Shown: positions 2,247 through 52,010 of the stretch, in pieces | Layout: each line of letters begins with the position of its first letter | Numbering within the stretch: position 1 is the first letter of the stretch | Program-made: the position numbers and the translations under genes | DNA from: Stenomitos rutilans HA7619-LM2 | Lineage (GTDB): Bacteria; Cyanobacteriota; Cyanobacteriia; Leptolyngbyales; Leptolyngbyaceae | Assembly (NCBI GenBank): GCA_019358945.1 | Contig: JAHHIE010000015.1 | Location: 1 to 64,000, forward strand | DNA length: 64,000 bases | Reading direction: 5' to 3' | Notes under the pieces: model-generated | Seen by the model: only the letters and a program-made list of their open reading frames with translations | Told to the model about the DNA's origin: nothing | Database searches by the model: none

Positions 2247-3854
2247 TCAGGATGAAACAGCTTCTAAAAGTTCTAAACGTTGAAAAACAGGTTGAGGATT
2301 CCCCAACGGCTGCATGGGAGGCAGTGTTCCCCAGGCCGCATGGGATGTAAACGGGGCTGTAATATTAATTAAAGCATGTTCATTAAAATCAACGGAGAAG
2401 CCTAACTGCTGATAGACAGTGGTACTGAGCTGGGGGGTGATCGGCGCTAAGAGATAGGCCGCAAGTCTGACAGATTCCAATACAGTGTACAAAATTTGTT
2501 CAACTGCCTGCTCGTGTCCTTGCTTATACAATGACCAAGGGGTTTGGTCATCGATATACTTATTGCCTGCTTTCACAAGGCTCAAAATCTCCTCACAAGC
2601 TTGGTTGAAAGCAAGTGAATTGTAGGCTTGAGCGACTCGATCGCCCAAATCATGCCCGATTATTGACAGCGTACTCTCTGCCTGCATGATATCCCTCAAA
2701 ATGTTAGGGACAGAAGCACCACAGTATTTGTGCGCCATCTTCAGCGTCCGGTTGAGTAAATTCCCTAAGTCGTTTGCCAGATCTGCGTTCAATATGTTGA
2801 CAAATCGCGTTTCGTTAAAATCGCCGTCACGCCCAAACTCAATTTCTTTAAGAAAATAATAGCGAACAGCATCAGAACCGTACCGCTCAACCAACGCAAC
2901 GGGGTCGAGCACATTCCCCAGCGTTTTGCCCATTTTCTGGCCGTCTTTAGTTAAATGCCCATGACCAAAGACCTTTACAGGAAGGGGCAAGCCAGCAGAC
3001 CACAACATTGCAGGCCAATAAACGGCGTGAAAGCGCAAAATGTCTTTGCCAATCAGATGTGTATTGATCGGCCACCAGCGGCTCAACGCGTTTTCTAATG
3101 TTGGCTCACTTTCAGGATCGAGAAGGGCTGTCACGTACCCCAGGAGCGCATCAAACCAAACGTAAATTGTATGCTTGGTGTCAAAAGGAACACGGATGCC
3201 CCAGTCCAGATTAACGCGGGAAATAGAAAAGTCTTGCAACCCCTGAGTCACAAAGCTCAGGACTTCATTGCGACGGGCTTCGGGCTGAATAAAGTTCGGT
3301 TGCTCAGCGTAAAGTGCTTCTAGCTTGCTTTGGTACTTAGACAATCGAAAAAAGTAATTCTCTTCGTTACGCCACTCGGCTTCACGGTTGGTGTGAATCG
3401 AACAGCGGTGATTATCCAGCAAATCACGTTCTTCCTTAAACTCTTCACAGGAGAGGCAATACCATCCTTGCTGTTGTCCAAGATAGATGTCGCCTTGATC
3501 CCAGACGCGCTGAAAAAACTCGTTGACAATCGCTTCGTGGCGAGGATCTGTTGTGCGAATAAAGCGATCGTAGTGAATGTCATACTGATCCCAAAGGGCT
3601 TTGAACTTCGCCGCAATTTGATCACAATGCTCTTGAGGCTTCAGCCCGCGACTCTCAGCCGTGCGCTGAATGTTTTGACCATGCTCATCAGTGCCGGTAA
3701 TCATCAGCACTGCTTTGCCAGCCATCCGCTGAAAACGCGCAATTGCATCTGCTGCGATCGTGGGATACGCGCTACCTACATGGGGTAAACCATTCACATA
3801 GTAAAGCGGTGTGGTGATGGCAAATATATTGCTATTTACAGAGCTAGAATTCAT
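2247..3854 (-). CDS. metG: Methionyl-tRNA synthetase
   Basis: Class I aminoacyl-tRNA synthetase that charges tRNA-Met. The HIGH-box variant H25-V-G-S28 and the KMSKS-box variant KMGKT are present. The connective insertion carries one C-x2-C / C-x2-H zinc knuckle (YCLSC, CSIH). At 535 residues it has the catalytic Rossmann domain and anticodon-binding helical domain but no C-terminal tRNA-binding (EMAP-like) extension, the usual bacterial short form. The start is the ATG at 3854 (MNSSS); an upstream A/T-rich stretch may hold the promoter. The long non-coding region upstream makes it a likely monocistron. Confidence 0.95.
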   Translation of the reverse strand: MNSSSVNSNIFAITTPLYYVNGLPHVGSAYPTIAADAIARFQRMAGKAVLMITGTDEHGQNIQRTAESRGLKPQEHCDQIAAKFKALWDQYDIHYDRFIRTTDPRHEAIVNEFFQRVWDQGDIYLGQQQGWYCLSCEEFKEERDLLDNHRCSIHTNREAEWRNEENYFFRLSKYQSKLEALYAEQPNFIQPEARRNEVLSFVTQGLQDFSISRVNLDWGIRVPFDTKHTIYVWFDALLGYVTALLDPESEPTLENALSRWWPINTHLIGKDILRFHAVYWPAMLWSAGLPLPVKVFGHGHLTKDGQKMGKTLGNVLDPVALVERYGSDAVRYYFLKEIEFGRDGDFNETRFVNILNADLANDLGNLLNRTLKMAHKYCGASVPNILRDIMQAESTLSIIGHDLGDRVAQAYNSLAFNQACEEILSLVKAGNKYIDDQTPWSLYKQGHEQAVEQILYTVLESVRLAAYLLAPITPQLSTTVYQQLGFSVDFNEHALINITAPFTSHAAWGTLPPMQPLGNPQPVFQRLELLEAVSS

Positions 3855-4548
3855 GTATTTTGAACGAAAATGCTATCACAGGGAATAGCGTGGTCTTGCT
3901 ATGGTCTTGACGATGTAAACATTGAATATGAGCGGTAAAGGGCTTCTAGAAAACAATGGCTTTACCAATTAAGAAAAAGATACGGAGGTGAAGAATACTG
4001 AAGTAATTGCCTTTCAACCGCTCTAAAAAAATACACCTTTTGACAATTCTAGCTACAAACGGTCTTTCAACCGCTAAGAAAAGCTTAAGTTAATCATCAG
4101 ATTTACTGACCCTTTTTCTTTACGACACTTTTCTATGAATTCGTCCTTGCTATCACCAATCGTTAATAACAATATCGTTCAAGCGATCGTAGTGACTGTC
4201 TTGGCTGTAGCAACCATCGCTTTTCTAAACAGGTGTGGTATACGACGCGTAAACGCTGAACTAGGGACGCAGAGGGGCATTTCTTCTTGGCGACATCGTT
4301 GGTACATCAGCATGGGTTCACTTTTTGGCAAATCAGCTTCTCAGTGTCAGCTTCAATCTATAAACCTTCAAGCATTCATTGCAAAGCACTCACACTCATG
4401 AAGCAACTACCAACCGCAGTTACAGACAGCGTTTTGCAACTAACAGCAGTTCTTTTAGCTAGGGAGAGTCCCCAGACCCTCGATCAAACCATGTAAAGTA
4501 ATATTAACACTCTGCTCTCAAGATTGCTCTTTGACATTGCCTTGCCTC
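3855..4548. other. Intergenic region between metG and acyltransferase
   Basis: About 690 bases between divergent genes. A 12-bp direct repeat CTTTCAACCGCT occurs at 4011-4022 and 4064-4075 (53 bp apart). An 88-codon frame at 4135-4401 with a hydrophobic N-terminus has no recognisable family and a non-coding-looking second half; I do not call it a gene. The rest is A/T-rich and probably carries both promoters. Confidence 0.5.
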
Positions 4549-5271
4549 ATGCCTTCAGACCAACCACTCCAGCTCTCACGCCTTCTACTAACCGTTTTAG
4601 GGACTCGTCTTTATACCCACTATCAGGACCGCATCCCCCAAACTGGCCCAGTGCTGATCGTTAGCAACCACCGTAGCTTTTTAGATGCACCGCTATTGAT
4701 GACTGCGCTCGATCGCTCGATCCGTTTTGCCTGTCACCACTACATGGGACAAGTGCCCCTCATGCGCGACATCGTAGAGAAAATGGGATGCTTTCCCCTC
4801 TCGTTGCCAGAACAGCGGCAGCAAACCTTTTTTGACCAGGCTGCTCAGCTTTTGCAGGCCCAGCAAGTGGTGGGGCTGTTTCCCGAAGGGGCTGAGCCGA
4901 TGGTTAAGCACACGCTGCCAGCACAGGTTGGAGCGTTTCAACGGGGATTTGCCCATTTGGCGTTGCGTGCGCCAGTCCCAGATTTGGTGGTGCTTCCGGT
5001 GGCGATCGCCTCTCATACAGAGGCTGTAAATGCTGCGTTTCCATTGCGCTTGTTGAGTCTGTTTGACCCTTCAGAGCCGCTGTTCTTACAAGACGGCTGG
5101 CATCCGATGGTGATCTATCAGCGGGTCAATGTCCTAATTGGTCGCCCCTACTGGATTCGTCCGATGCATCGTGAGCACTATCAGGGTAAGCAGGCTAAAG
5201 CTCTGGTGACTGAGCTAACCCAACAATGCCATACCGAAATTTGCACGTTACTAAAGCAGGGAAGCTATTAG
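4549..5271 (+). CDS. Lysophospholipid acyltransferase (PlsC-like)
   Basis: A glycerophospholipid-type acyltransferase that would move an acyl group to a lyso-acceptor at the membrane. The HX4D catalytic motif (NHRSFLD) and the acceptor-binding FPEG motif (LFPEGAE) are both intact about 65 residues apart. An in-frame TTG at 4531 would add six residues; the ATG at 4549 (MPSDQ) is preferred. The stop codon (5269-5271) abuts the next gene, an alpha/beta hydrolase, with no gap, so the two are translationally coupled. In plant phytyl ester synthases these two folds are fused in one chain, which suggests a joint role in phytyl-ester or acyl-plastoquinol type lipid synthesis. That function is inference. 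Confidence 0.8.
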   Translation: MPSDQPLQLSRLLLTVLGTRLYTHYQDRIPQTGPVLIVSNHRSFLDAPLLMTALDRSIRFACHHYMGQVPLMRDIVEKMGCFPLSLPEQRQQTFFDQAAQLLQAQQVVGLFPEGAEPMVKHTLPAQVGAFQRGFAHLALRAPVPDLVVLPVAIASHTEAVNAAFPLRLLSLFDPSEPLFLQDGWHPMVIYQRVNVLIGRPYWIRPMHREHYQGKQAKALVTELTQQCHTEICTLLKQGSY

Positions 5272-6126
5272 GTGCGCTCTATTTCGATGTCCTATCCTTC
5301 ACGCCGTTCTGCCATGACTAACGTTCAAAGCCACCCCTGTTTCCTCACGCCGGAGCGGTTGCAACCAGAATTACCGTTATTTGTGTTTTTGCCAGGAATG
5401 GATGGCACGGGTCGCTTACTCAAAACTCAAACTGTAGGGCTAGAGCCAGCGTTTGATGTGCGCTGTCTGGCAATTCCGCCCGATGATTTGACTAACTGGC
5501 AGATTTTGACTGAAACGGTTTTGTCGTTGATTAATGCAGAGTTGCAGCAAGCGCCCGATCGCCCCGTGTATCTCTGTGGCGAATCGTTTGGAGGCTGTCT
5601 GGCGATGAAGATCGCCCTCGCTGCACCGCAGTTGTTCGATCGCCTGATTCTGGTCAATCCAGCTTCTTCGTTTCGTCGTAAACCGCTAATCGCGTGGGGA
5701 TCACAAACGACGCGCTGGTTGCCAGAAGCTTTATATCGGCTATCGTCGATCGGCCTCATGCCGTTTCTGGCACATCTGGGACGTATGACCGACCACGATC
5801 GACAGGAATTCTATGAGGCTGTTTTGTCAGTGCCGCAAAAAACATCAATCTGGCGGCTGTCCCTGCTTAACGACTTTGATGTGACAGATGAACAACTGGT
5901 GCAACTGCGGCAGCCTGTTTTGTTGCTAGCAAGTGCGGCTGATCGCCTACTGCCTTCGCTAGCAGAAGTACACCATTTAGCGCAGTTCTTTCCTCACGCG
6001 CAAACGGTTGTGCTGCCATCAAGCGGCCATGCATGCCTATTGGAAGCAGACGTAAACCTGTACAAAATTATGCAAGCCCAGAGATTTCTGATGCAACAAA
6101 GCCAGCCCTTATTGCGATCGCGCTGA
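5272..6126 (+). CDS. Alpha/beta hydrolase like the N-terminal half of phytyl ester synthases
   Basis: The fold is clear: oxyanion-loop motif FLPGMDGTG near residue 38, nucleophile elbow G-E-S105-F-G, acid D224 (SAADR) and H253 (SSGHACLLE), numbering from the first codon. FLPGxDGTG and GESFGG are typical of the esterase/lipase domain of plant phytyl ester synthases (PES1/2), which transfer or cleave acyl groups on phytol and glycerolipids. The open frame begins with a GTG at 5272 immediately after the acyltransferase stop; ATG codons at 5287 and 5314 are alternative starts and 5314 is nearest to the conserved core. Together with the upstream LPLAT gene it forms a split version of the PES architecture in reversed order. 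Confidence 0.75.
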   Translation: MRSISMSYPSRRSAMTNVQSHPCFLTPERLQPELPLFVFLPGMDGTGRLLKTQTVGLEPAFDVRCLAIPPDDLTNWQILTETVLSLINAELQQAPDRPVYLCGESFGGCLAMKIALAAPQLFDRLILVNPASSFRRKPLIAWGSQTTRWLPEALYRLSSIGLMPFLAHLGRMTDHDRQEFYEAVLSVPQKTSIWRLSLLNDFDVTDEQLVQLRQPVLLLASAADRLLPSLAEVHHLAQFFPHAQTVVLPSSGHACLLEADVNLYKIMQAQRFLMQQSQPLLRSR

Positions 6127-6195
6127 GGTGAAAGCTATAGGTATGAAAACTCCATCCCCTGGGATTAGCATTCCCCCTTAAGAAACAAGACACAG

Positions 6196-6669
6196 TCATG
6201 CATGAGACTGTAGCGACTGGGTCACAATTTCAAAATAAGGGCGAGTGAGGATTACCTCTTCAGCAGGTAGAGCGACTGCGATCGCGTCTTGTAAGAACCG
6301 ATAAGCGGTCATGCAGTGCGCAGTCTTTTTATGTGCGAGCAAAATCGTGTCTAGCCAGGACATCATTTGTTCTTTAAAGAAGATTTCGTCATCCCGCAAA
6401 ATCGACAAGGCAATATACCGCAGCACCTCAGTCATGTCATACTTGCACCGCTGACCATGTTGTTGAATTAACTCTGGATAGGTTTGTGCTAGCTTGCGAA
6501 GTGCTTGAATGACGAGCGCGTCGCCACCGTCGCGTAATTTCTGATAAGCCTGTAGTCGCACGGCATAGCTGTGTGCGTACTGTTCTAGAGGAGAAAGCTC
6601 CTGAGCGTTGAGGTAGCGTCCATCAGCCTCTAGAAAGCTTTTTTCTAGGGTGTGATTAAGAGTATGCAT
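6196..6669 (-). CDS. Phycobilisome/phycobiliprotein-fold protein
   Basis: The 157-residue sequence aligns by eye with allophycocyanin subunits along its length: ADGRYLNAQEL matches the ADARYLSPGEL helix, and RCKYDMTEVLRY matches the bilin-site helix, with C75 at the position of the chromophore cysteine (Cys-84 of phycobiliproteins) and D78 and R84 conserved; the end YFEIVTQSL matches the last helix. It is not a canonical apc or cpc subunit. It may be a minor core component, a bilin-binding accessory protein or a phycobilisome-fold regulator. The gene is single and divergent from the next gene; no other phycobilisome gene is in the window. Confidence 0.75.
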   Translation of the reverse strand: MHTLNHTLEKSFLEADGRYLNAQELSPLEQYAHSYAVRLQAYQKLRDGGDALVIQALRKLAQTYPELIQQHGQRCKYDMTEVLRYIALSILRDDEIFFKEQMMSWLDTILLAHKKTAHCMTAYRFLQDAIAVALPAEEVILTRPYFEIVTQSLQSHA

Positions 6670-43784: not shown

Positions 43785-43884
43785 TACCAATTTGAATTGA
43801 AAATGCGACACATCCTGTAGGGGAAAGGCATTGCCTTGCCCCTACCCACCGATTGATCTATAGCCGTCATTCTTTAAATCGGTA
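43785..43884. mobile_element. 100-bp MITE-like element, family B, copy 1
   Basis: Ends TACCAATTTGAA and TTTAAATCGGTA are imperfect terminal inverted repeats (TACCRATTTRAA). The element is flanked by TGA on both sides (43782-43784 and 43885-43887). The centre GGCATTGCC/TTGCCCC forms a further inverted repeat. A near-identical copy lies at 51148-51247 with a different flank (TCA), which shows that TGA and TCA are true 3-bp target duplications of type TNA. Confidence 0.88.
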
Positions 43885-48515: not shown

Positions 48516-49742
48516 ATGGATGCACGCCGAGCGGCAGAATTGGCAGCACGCAACTCCTACGGTCGGTTGGTGGCTTATCTAGCTGCACAAACGCGGGATG
48601 TGGCAGCGGCTGAAGATGCCCTCGGTGAAGCATTCCTTGCGGCCCTCAATACCTGGGCAGACAGTGGAATACCCCAAAACCCTGAAGCCTGGTTGTTGAC
48701 AATAGCACGCCATCGACTGATTGACGTTGCGCGGCGCACGCAGGTTCAGACCAAGGTTCTCAATAAGTTGAAGCTTGATGGATTGGAATGGCAAGCTGAA
48801 CCATCGTTAGATGCAGTGATCTTTCAAGACGATCGCCTGAAATTACTGTTCCTTTGCGCTCATCCCGCCATTGATGCAGCCATTCACACCCCATTGATGC
48901 TGCAAACCGTGCTTGGTTTGAATGCAGTACAGATTGCTTCTGCCTTTTTGGTTGCACCTGCCACCATGAGCCAGCGACTTGTACGAGCAAAGGCGAAGAT
49001 TCGGGATGCGGGCATTGCGCTTGAGTTACCTGACGCACGAGATTTGCCGACTCGACTGATAGCTGTGCTAGAAGCCATTTATGCCGCGTTTACTCATGCG
49101 TGGGAAACCGTAGATGGGGGCGATCCTCGGCATCAAGGACTGGCAGAAGAAGCGGTTTGGCTGGCACGGTTATGCGTTCAGCTCATGCCCCAGGAGCCAG
49201 AAGTGCGAGGGTTACTGGCGTTGATGCTTTACTGCGAAGCTCGACGTGAAACGCGTCGCACCACAAATGGTCGCTATGTCCCATTATCGCAGCAAGATAC
49301 CCAGCTTTGGGCACAGCCCATGATCGATGAAGCTGAGCGTGAATTAGCAAAAGCCGCGACCTATAAGCAATTGGGACGCTTTCAACTGGAAGCAGCCATT
49401 CAATCGATCCACGCTCAACGTGCGACAACGCAGCAGGTTAACTGGGAAGCACTGGCCTTGCTTTATGAAGGGTTAGTGCAGCTTTCACCAACGCTGGGTG
49501 CGTATGTGAGTCAAGCGGCTGCGATCGCCGAAGCCAAGGGCTCAGACCAGGGCTTACAACAACTTGCGGCACTCCCAACTGAGGCGGTGAAGCATTACCA
49601 ACCCTATTGGGCTTTGAAGGCTCATCTATTCAAGCAGTTGGGGCGTGAGCCTGAAGCGCAACAGGCTTATACACAGGCGATCGGTTTAACCGAAGATGCC
49701 GCTATTCGGGAGTTTCTGCTCCATCAATCGCGCTCTAATTAG
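48516..49742 (+). CDS. ECF42-type RNA polymerase sigma factor with C-terminal TPR-like extension
   Basis: Sigma region 2 (about 10-75; VAAAEDALGEAFLAALNTW, AWLLTIARHRLID) and region 4 (about 105-170; LGLNAVQIASAFLVAPATMSQRLVRAK) are followed by a roughly 230-residue extension (DUF6596/SigJ-like with helical repeats). This layout, the 408-residue length and the DGPF gene upstream define group ECF42. These sigma factors lack a classical anti-sigma factor; the extension itself is thought to regulate activity. Start ATG at 48516, six bases after the GST stop. The end overlaps the convergent DUF1772 gene by four bases. Confidence 0.88.
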   Translation: MDARRAAELAARNSYGRLVAYLAAQTRDVAAAEDALGEAFLAALNTWADSGIPQNPEAWLLTIARHRLIDVARRTQVQTKVLNKLKLDGLEWQAEPSLDAVIFQDDRLKLLFLCAHPAIDAAIHTPLMLQTVLGLNAVQIASAFLVAPATMSQRLVRAKAKIRDAGIALELPDARDLPTRLIAVLEAIYAAFTHAWETVDGGDPRHQGLAEEAVWLARLCVQLMPQEPEVRGLLALMLYCEARRETRRTTNGRYVPLSQQDTQLWAQPMIDEAERELAKAATYKQLGRFQLEAAIQSIHAQRATTQQVNWEALALLYEGLVQLSPTLGAYVSQAAAIAEAKGSDQGLQQLAALPTEAVKHYQPYWALKAHLFKQLGREPEAQQAYTQAIGLTEDAAIREFLLHQSRSN

Positions 49743-50221
49743 AGGGCAAGCGTAAATGCTGCCGCTGCTGCTAGGGCTGCTACCGTCCGTACATGGTTCC
49801 AGGCTGTCCAGTTGGTGAGATAGCGAGTCCATAGCGCGGCACCGTCACTGCTGGTTGGTTCGACGGCTGCAAGGGCATCGTTGAGCGGTACGTTAAAAGC
49901 GATCGTGACCAGAAACGTGCCGATAAGATACAGCAGACTACCAATGAGTAAGAAAGCTGCACCGGGTTGTTGCCACTTGAGCAGCGACACGATCGCCCAA
50001 AAGAAGCAAACGGCGGCTGTGCCAAGAAATGCAGCCATAAACAGAGGATTAATCACGGTAATGTTGATGGCCTGCATAGCCGCAATCCCTTGTGATGGCT
50101 GAAGGCGGGCAAGAGCGCTCATGACGAAGGTTGAAAACGCGAAGAAAACGCCTGCGACCAAGCCACAGCCTAAAACCGTGAAAAGCTTCAACACAAAAAG
50201 TGCATCATTTGTGATCGCCAT
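49739..50221 (-). CDS. DUF1772 membrane protein
   Basis: A 160-residue protein with four hydrophobic segments (about 5-30, 47-68, 78-98, 135-158). GLVAGVFFAFSTFVMSAL, QAINITVINPLFM and a late WNHVRTxAALAAAA mark DUF1772 (anthrone oxygenase-like). Members sit near sigma, AHSA1 and ArsR genes in many bacteria. The ATG at 50221 follows GGAGGG directly and is preferred over the GTG at 50236. It overlaps the sigma gene end to end by four bases. Confidence 0.82.
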   Translation of the reverse strand: MAITNDALFVLKLFTVLGCGLVAGVFFAFSTFVMSALARLQPSQGIAAMQAINITVINPLFMAAFLGTAAVCFFWAIVSLLKWQQPGAAFLLIGSLLYLIGTFLVTIAFNVPLNDALAAVEPTSSDGAALWTRYLTNWTAWNHVRTVAALAAAAAFTLAL

Positions 50222-50412
50222 AAACCCTCCTGTCACTTACGCCATTGCCTTGTTAGCACCTTCTTTCATGAGTATTACTCTTATTGGATGCCGTCTAGTG
50301 CGTGCAGATCATGTTCCAAGACGACCTACCGCTTGGAAACCGTGAGAGTACACCAAGCTGTGGTTTTGCGGTACATTTCTGTGCAACATGTGTTGACTTC
50401 ATGATGGATAAC

Positions 50413-50922
50413 TCACAGCGTTGCTAAATACTCATCCATGCAGTCAAAGGTGGAGTTCCAACCTGCAACAACGCCCATTTCTTCGTGCTTACGGCGATCG
50501 TCTGCTGTAGCGTGCAGGATCAGGAGGGTTAGCTTGGTTTGGTTGCCCAACGCCTCGAAGGTTGCAGTCACGACAATTCCTTGTGGCAAATCAGCATTGA
50601 TCACCGCTTCAAAGCCTTCATCAAACTCATCGCTCGTAACAATCCGCTCAGGAGCCACGATTTCACGAAACACCCCTTTGACTGGGTATTCCGTGCCATC
50701 TGGGCCAAGCATGACATAACGCCATTGCCCACCTGAACGGAAATCTAGCTCAGTAACACGGGTGGTAAAGCCTTTGGGTCCCCACCATTGGGTGATGTGC
50801 TGCGGCTCTGTCCAGACCTTGAAGACCAACTCGCGTGGTGCATTGAAGGTGCGGGTGATGACGATCGCACGATCGGACTGAGACTCGGACTGAGCCATTG
50901 TGGAATCATGATTGTTGCCCAT
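50413..50922 (-). CDS. AHSA1-family SRPBCC domain protein
   Basis: A hydrophobic-ligand-binding helix-grip protein. The start of the domain (AIVITRTFNAPRELVFKVWTEP) and WWGPKGF, then GRW-like GGQWRYVM and the long C-terminal helix GWNSTFDCMDEYLATL, are typical AHSA1/YndB members. The family is normally the second gene of an ArsR-AHSA1 operon. Here the first gene is the disrupted ArsR at 50906-51366, and the AHSA1 start at 50922 (after CAGGAG) overlaps its end, as in intact operons. An internal ATG at 50898 is an alternative start. The ligand is unknown. Confidence 0.85.
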   Translation of the reverse strand: MGNNHDSTMAQSESQSDRAIVITRTFNAPRELVFKVWTEPQHITQWWGPKGFTTRVTELDFRSGGQWRYVMLGPDGTEYPVKGVFREIVAPERIVTSDEFDEGFEAVINADLPQGIVVTATFEALGNQTKLTLLILHATADDRRKHEEMGVVAGWNSTFDCMDEYLATL

Positions 50923-51366
50923 TGGGATTCTCCTGGGTTTGCGATGCTGTTTGTGAAACTTGCAGGTAATCATCTAGCTATCGAGGCGATCTTCCCAGTA
51001 TTAGCGATGTTGCTGGAGCCAATCTGCCACTTTCTTGAATGTTCTGCATTGATTTGACAGGGTCGCCATCGAGCCTCTCGCTCGCGTGTGATGAATGAGG
51101 ATGCTCTACCCCCTAAGTTGTTAGAAATGGCTGAAAGGCTCATCTCATACCAATTTGAATTGAAAATGCGACACATCCTGTAGGGGCAAGGCATTGCCTT
51201 GCCCCTACCCACCGATTGATCTGTAGCCGTCATTCTTTAAATCGGTATCAAAGGGCTTTGCCAACTCCAGCGACGAAAGCCTCGTCCTGTATGACTGGGC
51301 CAGAAACGCACGTCGAGTGAGATCGGCAAGCGCCGCAAGGGTGGCACTCAGGTGATCAAGAGACAT
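50906..51366 (-). pseudogene. ArsR-family repressor gene interrupted by a MITE
   Basis: The frame beginning at 51366 reads MSLDHLSATLAALADLTRRA, the exact N-terminus of ArsR/HTH_20 repressors, and continues to ELAKPF at the 100-bp element (51148-51247). After the element it resumes as MSLSAISN...ITREREARWRPCQIN, the recognition helix and wing, then in another frame KVADWLQQHR, YWEDRLDS and DDYLQ with stops, ending at a TGA at 50906-50908. The element inserted between KPF and MSL, i.e. within the helix-turn-helix. Extra frameshifts show the gene has decayed since. It would have controlled the AHSA1 gene. Confidence 0.85.
51148..51247. mobile_element. 100-bp MITE-like element, family B, copy 2
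   Basis: Nearly identical to the copy at 43785-43884 and in the same orientation. It is flanked by TCA on both sides (51145-51147 and 51248-51250), a TNA-type 3-bp target duplication. It splits the ArsR reading frame at 50906-51366. Ends are TACCAATTTGAA and TTTAAATCGGTA. Confidence 0.9.
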
Positions 51367-51605
51367 CTGATCGGCAGACCATCCTTTACTTAACCGTGCG
51401 GTTAATTACCTAATAGGTTAAGTGTACTAGTCCAGAATGTCAAGGGCTATCTGGTTACTGGCTCACAAAAGGCGCGATCGCAGTTCAATCACAGCGTGCA
51501 AGCGTGATCCTAACAAACTGAATCCGTTGAGCGTTGGTTTGGGTAAGGCAGTCTTGAACCGATGCTTAGCAGCAAACAATTTATCACGCAGAATGGTCTC
51601 ACCTG

Positions 51606-52010
51606 TTAGAAGATTGCTAGAGCCGTCAAAGCGACTAAACAGGCAAGCTGAATCACTAAGCTCAAGAGCCGAAACAGTGGATTTAGGCCAGCGATGTGAA
51701 TCAGTGAATGGAGTAGCCGAAAGGCTATGTACACAACAACAATTGAGTCGATGACAGTTCCAGAGACACCGCGAATGGTCAGAAGAAAGACAACCCCCAA
51801 ATACAGAGGAAGGTTTTCTACTAAGTTGGACTGCACTCGGAATAATCGCCAAAGCAAGCTTTCGTCGTTTTGCATGCCGAAATCTTTGGGAGAACCGCCA
51901 GCCGATAGGTGTCGAATTCTAACGGCTAGCAGAAGGACAACGACGGCGATCGTCCATACAATAAAAACGGCTAGGCCCCAAAGTGGTATGGTCATCTCGA
52001 TCGTAGGCAT
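51606..52010 (-). CDS. MAPEG-family membrane protein
   Basis: A 134-residue protein with four hydrophobic segments, the layout of membrane-associated eicosanoid and glutathione metabolism enzymes. The loop FRVQSNLVENLPLYLGVVFLL contains the conserved R, N and E of the MAPEG glutathione-site region, and FRLLHSLIHIAGLNPLFR the second conserved block. It would be a membrane-bound glutathione transferase or peroxidase-like protein. It starts at 52010; a region with multiple hairpins separates it from azoR on the same strand. Confidence 0.85.
   Translation of the reverse strand: MPTIEMTIPLWGLAVFIVWTIAVVVLLLAVRIRHLSAGGSPKDFGMQNDESLLWRLFRVQSNLVENLPLYLGVVFLLTIRGVSGTVIDSIVVVYIAFRLLHSLIHIAGLNPLFRLLSLVIQLACLVALTALAIF

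Follow-up and report, generated by a model that had tools for sequence, protein, structure and literature searches.

Does a small mobile element inside a broken gene mark the event that broke it, and what controls the intact partner gene that is left behind? Both questions are raised by an arsR-AHSA1 locus of the cyanobacterium Stenomitos rutilans HA7619-LM2, located within the 64,000-nucleotide stretch of DNA analysed here (referred to as the window), in which an ArsR-type repressor gene is split by a 100-bp MITE ahead of a gene for an AHSA1-domain protein (see Table 1). An earlier note on this DNA, in which the split gene and its partner were first described, took the element to be the cause of repressor loss in a detoxification operon and expected AHSA1 to be constitutively expressed or newly controlled as a consequence.

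Table 1. Features of the arsR-AHSA1 locus and its neighbourhood (coordinates refer to the window).
Feature	Position	Strand	Remarks
Anthrone_oxy (DUF1772-type) membrane protein gene	49739..50236	-	adjoins the same operon in several relatives
AHSA1-domain (SRPBCC superfamily) gene, intact	50413..50922	-	Pfam PF08327, E 4e-30; ATG 50922
arsR pseudogene	51366..50906	-	ATG 51366 to old stop TGA 50908-50906; agrees exactly with the coordinates of the earlier note
arsR pseudogene, 3' part	50906..51147	-	frameshifting deletions near 51115, 51097, 51042 and 50978; nonsense TAA 51003-51001
Target-site duplication TCA, left copy	51145..51147	+	
MITE, 100 bp	51148..51247	+	imperfect terminal inverted repeats, near-perfect internal hairpin, no transposase
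Target-site duplication TCA, right copy	51248..51250	+	
arsR pseudogene, 5' part	51251..51366	-	ATG 51366; DPTRR changed to DLTRR; frameshift pair (about 51268-51295) scrambles the protein ahead of the insertion point
Operator O2	51390..51405	-	perfect inverted repeat TTAACCGCACGGTTAA, 7-bp arms
Operator O1	51406..51421	-	TTAACCTATTAGGTAA, one half-site altered
Probable promoter	51415..51443	-	-35 TTGACA 51443-51438; -10 TAACCT 51420-51415; overlaps O1
MAPEG-family gene, upstream	51606..52010	-	upstream also in the same-genus locus L010 (G039)

The AHSA1 gene proved to be intact and to overlap the old arsR end as had been described: its ATG at 50922 lies inside the former repressor gene, it has an upstream AGGAG ribosome site like its counterparts in intact operons, its product matches PF08327, and 3 of its 152 invariant first and second codon positions are altered. 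The gene is under purifying selection. The designation as a detoxification operon found no such backing: nothing was detected that would show detoxification, and the intact ArsR relatives inspected possess at most one conserved cysteine (WRPC) in the region and lack a paired-cysteine metal site. The ArsR domain itself was recognised in the intact relatives and in a paralogue of the window gene (PF01022, E 1e-13; HTH_metalloreg above the cut-off), the comparison of the intact relatives with SdpR remained below the cut-off, and neither half of the window arsR gave a Pfam match.

The inserted sequence (51148-51247) is a MITE, as is evident from its short size, the absence of any gene within its 100 bp, its inverted repeats, the flanking duplications and its dispersed copies. 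It is bounded by imperfect terminal inverted repeats (TACCAATTTGAATT... / ...TTAAATCGGTA; read inward, TACCAATTT... versus the reverse complement TACCGATTT...), contains the near-perfect internal hairpin GTAGGGGCAAGGCATTGCCTTGCCCCTAC, and folds with -44.5 kcal/mol (z -6.25). A search of the whole 7.28-Mb genome with each of its two ends in turn gave 98 (left) and 94 (right) places, which combine to 90 paired copies (87 of exactly 100 bp); among 40 copies read with their flanks, 36 showed an identical 3-bp duplication that was always TNA (TCA 23, TGA 7, TTA 4, TAA 2). Because of these 90 paired copies and the identical TNA duplications at 36 of 40, a chance repeat is excluded. The family deviates by approximately 1% from its consensus in this genome: 38 of the 40 sampled copies have no more than two differences, and the window copy has none (0/100). 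MITE relatives were present in all six other same-genus genomes examined, with a high copy number only in G036; dozens of family copies, roughly 87-94% identical to the window copy, were observed in that genome, and this second burst suggests a separate amplification in two species.

With regard to mobilisation, IS1031-type elements duplicate TNA, and the 3-bp TNA duplication of the MITE is that expected of an IS5/IS1031-type mobiliser. The element was nevertheless not filed under IS1031, as no transposase could be linked to its ends: the unpaired MITE ends revealed no transposase that would indicate an autonomous parent, and the ends were absent from PF13359 and PF13340 transposase loci, save for one MITE copy near L178. 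An IS630-like TA duplication was discarded, since it is TNA that is repeated outside the TACC ends. A second copy of the MITE is located in the window (43785-43884, plus strand) between two TGA duplicates. It lies upstream of a gene with a GFA-like translation (glutathione-dependent formaldehyde-activating family), whose reading frame could be extended (43870 to 43349) from an ATG within this copy. A further MITE-like unit, approximately 113 bp long and with TACCAATTT ends that are related, exists in the same genome (L137, 132-245; L138, 2063-2176).

Removal of the element and of one duplicated TCA rejoins the flanks to read ...AKPFEMSLSAIS..., and this junction agrees with AKPFEMSLPAISKH, the consensus of the intact relatives at this site; both halves therefore belong to one ArsR. 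AHSA1 searches yielded 29 cyanobacterial loci with an intact arsR ahead of AHSA1 (27 after removal of duplicates), and the insertion site is uninterrupted in all 27 distinct operons. Copies, duplications and the rejoined reading thus agree with the earlier description of an arsR split by a 100-bp MITE with TCA at both edges, and two of the checks that the earlier note had named, the search for uninterrupted loci in relatives and the alignment of the halves without the element, came out in its favour.

The MITE is, however, one lesion among several in the arsR remnant: besides it, a nonsense codon and frameshifting indels were identified, the latter to either side of the element (their exact count is alignment-dependent, but no fewer than four are required), and a proline of the invariant DPTRR motif is replaced by leucine. 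The frameshifts that had been placed after the insertion are thus real, but they are situated on both sides of the MITE and not only behind it. In consequence of the indels, the nonsense codon and the element, the window contains no functional open arsR frame. At first and second codon positions that are invariant in intact genes, the remnant carries 17 changes in 130, or 5 in 74 if the in-frame stretches alone are considered, whereas intact arsR genes scored likewise have a median of 1 change and a maximum of 8. A MAFFT-based count of 28 in 128 was inflated by frameshifted stretches and was replaced by these two values.

If an equal decay time is assumed for the MITE and the remnant, the probability of observing 0 changes in the 100 bp of the MITE is 8e-7 (based on 17/130) or 9e-4 (based on 5/74), and the corresponding Fisher comparisons gave p values of 5e-5 and 0.013. 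Because the element, unlike the remnant, is unchanged, and because lesions lie on both sides of it, decay first and insertion later is on statistical grounds the most likely order of events, with the MITE entering a gene already in decay. The main caveat on this order is gene conversion between copies of the MITE, which could preserve an old copy unchanged; moreover, the changes at invariant positions are a rough clock only, as some of them could predate the loss of function. The reverse order, with the MITE as the first, inactivating hit, the remaining lesions accumulating later and AHSA1 left constitutive, might appear attractive, since the element splits arsR just ahead of the recognition helix and brings in stops, and since MITE-caused pseudogenes have been documented in Anabaena sp. 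90, where 15 of 147 MITEs reside in disrupted genes (PMC3542288). It is considered improbable in view of the unequal numbers of changes, the several indels on both sides and three other loci that lost arsR while having no such element in the gap; its constitutive part is in addition opposed by the retained operator and the intact paralogue described below. The proposal that the element inactivated the repressor accordingly conflicts with older-looking lesions on either side of an element that still equals its family consensus.

A probable late arrival of the MITE leaves the control of AHSA1 to be explained. The 27 intact operons share a common layout of TTGAC(A/T), approximately 16-17 bases, two abutting 16-bp inverted repeats and the arsR start; the repeats, situated just upstream of this start, are of the TTAACC-N4-GGTTAA type with some variation. 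The window keeps this promoter-operator layout at 51390-51443, and TTAACC-N4-GGTTAA occurs at one site in the window (O2) versus none in 100 shuffles. The promoter is conserved in the 27 intact operons. TAACCT is its putative -10; a consensus promoter scan of the window left this -10 at 51420-51415 uncalled. At intact loci (e.g. L017, L024, L036), the double operator is specific enough to find regulon members genome-wide.

An intact ArsR gene of the same subfamily is encoded on another contig of the genome (C48:9810-10142; free of stop codons and 77% identical to the relative that served as query). Its recognition helix corresponds to that of the window subfamily, its upstream promoter and O2 are also the same, and it precedes a glyoxalase-like and a PhnB-like gene (named by resemblance of their translations). 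The tandem operator was detected in the own genome at the window locus, at C48 and at a decayed locus on C118 only (backward-pattern control: 0 matches). The last (C118, about 3000-6300; G000, L146) is a decayed arsR-glyoxalase-PhnB-like operon with the tandem ArsR operator kept at C118:4918-4949; broken flavodoxin-like and anthrone-oxygenase-like genes are also present there. Because the C48 ArsR has the same recognition helix and operator, AHSA1 is probably still repressed in trans by this paralogue; the expectation of constitutive or newly controlled expression fits poorly with the survival of promoter and operator at 51390-51443 and with the intact ArsR on C48, which has this operator as well.

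Decay first and a late MITE would also be compatible with an AHSA1 gene that is now constitutive, the operator persisting only through its overlap with the core promoter. Indeed, O1, partly mutated in the window, shares bases with the -10 region, and at this locus taken alone the promoter is not significantly better conserved than the remnant (3 changes in 40 versus 17 in 130, p 0.41); pooling of the four loci with arsR loss gave 9 in 160 and p 0.04, a significance that is nominal and reached only when pooled. O2, on the other hand, is placed downstream of the -10, where it has remained a perfect inverted repeat in this DNA, and the genome keeps the intact ArsR with the same operator, so that this possibility is rated as rather unlikely, though less so than the MITE-first order. 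With repression in trans as the preferred reading, any transcript of AHSA1 would start from the retained promoter and carry a non-coding leader with the MITE hairpin. A recruitment of the MITE as a regulatory leader, in which the hairpin in the untranslated RNA or a small fusion frame tunes AHSA1, could be suspected from the very stable hairpin and from an 87-aa fusion ORF (51233 to 50970) that starts in the MITE and reads into the recognition-helix region; as hairpin and sequence are those of the whole MITE family, as neither terminator nor promoter nor Rfam match was found in the MITE, and as the fusion ORF is without the N-terminal helices and itself frameshifted, such a role is very improbable. 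A terminator or riboswitch reading of the MITE was dismissed on the same observations, i.e. no terminator in the hairpin and no Rfam match.

According to the preferred scenario, which as a whole is regarded as fairly probable, the ancestral arsR-AHSA1 operon would have controlled its own transcription through two adjoining 16-bp operators in its promoter. The local arsR would have become redundant because the genome also possessed the ArsR paralogue that is now on C48 and shares its subfamily and operator, and would then have decayed through point mutations and small indels; late in this decay, the recently amplified 100-bp MITE would have inserted with its 3-bp TNA duplication. AHSA1 has kept promoter, operator and ribosome site, and the C48 ArsR most likely still represses it in trans.

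The window locus is not the only one of its kind. In three other cyanobacterial loci, L010 (= L019; G039, same genus), L041 (Phormidium tenue FACHB-886) and L039 (a groundwater MAG), arsR is wrecked or mostly deleted beside an intact AHSA1 gene with the promoter-operator conserved, and no MITE is present in the promoter-AHSA1 gap of any of them. On the AHSA1 tree the four arsR losses need four changes (3-4 in the bootstrap), of which the well-supported branches force only two. Each of the four genomes encodes a further, intact arsR of the subfamily at another locus, again with this operator; such a second copy occurs in 3 of the 25 genomes whose local arsR is intact versus 4 of 4 with arsR loss (Fisher p 0.0015), an association that comprises 2-4 tree-aware pairs, too few to be significant. 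In place of a CAA codon of intact genes, CGCTAA is found in the window and in L010 alike; this was rejected as a shared lesion dating the loss, as the advanced decay of L010 precludes a firm alignment and the two loci do not group on the AHSA1 tree. That the arsR beside AHSA1 has been lost repeatedly and preferentially where a second ArsR of the same operator is kept, control passing to the distant paralogue with promoter and operator staying in place, is given an even chance.

MITEs in cyanobacterial pseudogenes (PMC3542288) and the inactivation of regulators by MITEs elsewhere (PMC10969869) are already established. The MITEs of Anabaena sp. 90 (77-541 bp, inverted repeats, predicted hairpin; type II, no matching insertion sequence in the genome; PMC3542288) resemble the present case as small inverted-repeat hairpin elements inside disrupted genes; they are from another genus and likened by description, and here the host-gene lesions suggest that the MITE came late. 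Nezha, a cyanobacterial MITE described as active according to the citing paper (Zhou et al. 2008, cited in PMC10969869), is likewise comparable by description. MITEAba12 in hns of Acinetobacter baumannii also interrupts a regulator gene; its insertion is reported to inactivate the regulator (PMC10969869, PMC6382973), whereas the order appears reversed in the window arsR. ArsR/SmtB and AHSA1/SRPBCC pairs of cyanobacteria and other phyla have the gene order of the window, with stop/start overlap in several relatives, and the cyanobacterial pairs share its tandem TTAACC-N4-GGTTAA operators; they differ from the window, in which the local repressor has become a pseudogene. A literature search of incomplete coverage returned no paper on the arsR-AHSA1 operon or its operator layout.

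The comparative pattern around arsR loss is of modest interest. A mobile element within a broken gene need not have caused the break, and it is the element's own mutations, set against those of the host gene, that separate a cause from a late arrival. If control in trans holds true, the four loci would constitute a small natural experiment on a regulator that becomes dispensable once a paralogue shares its operator.
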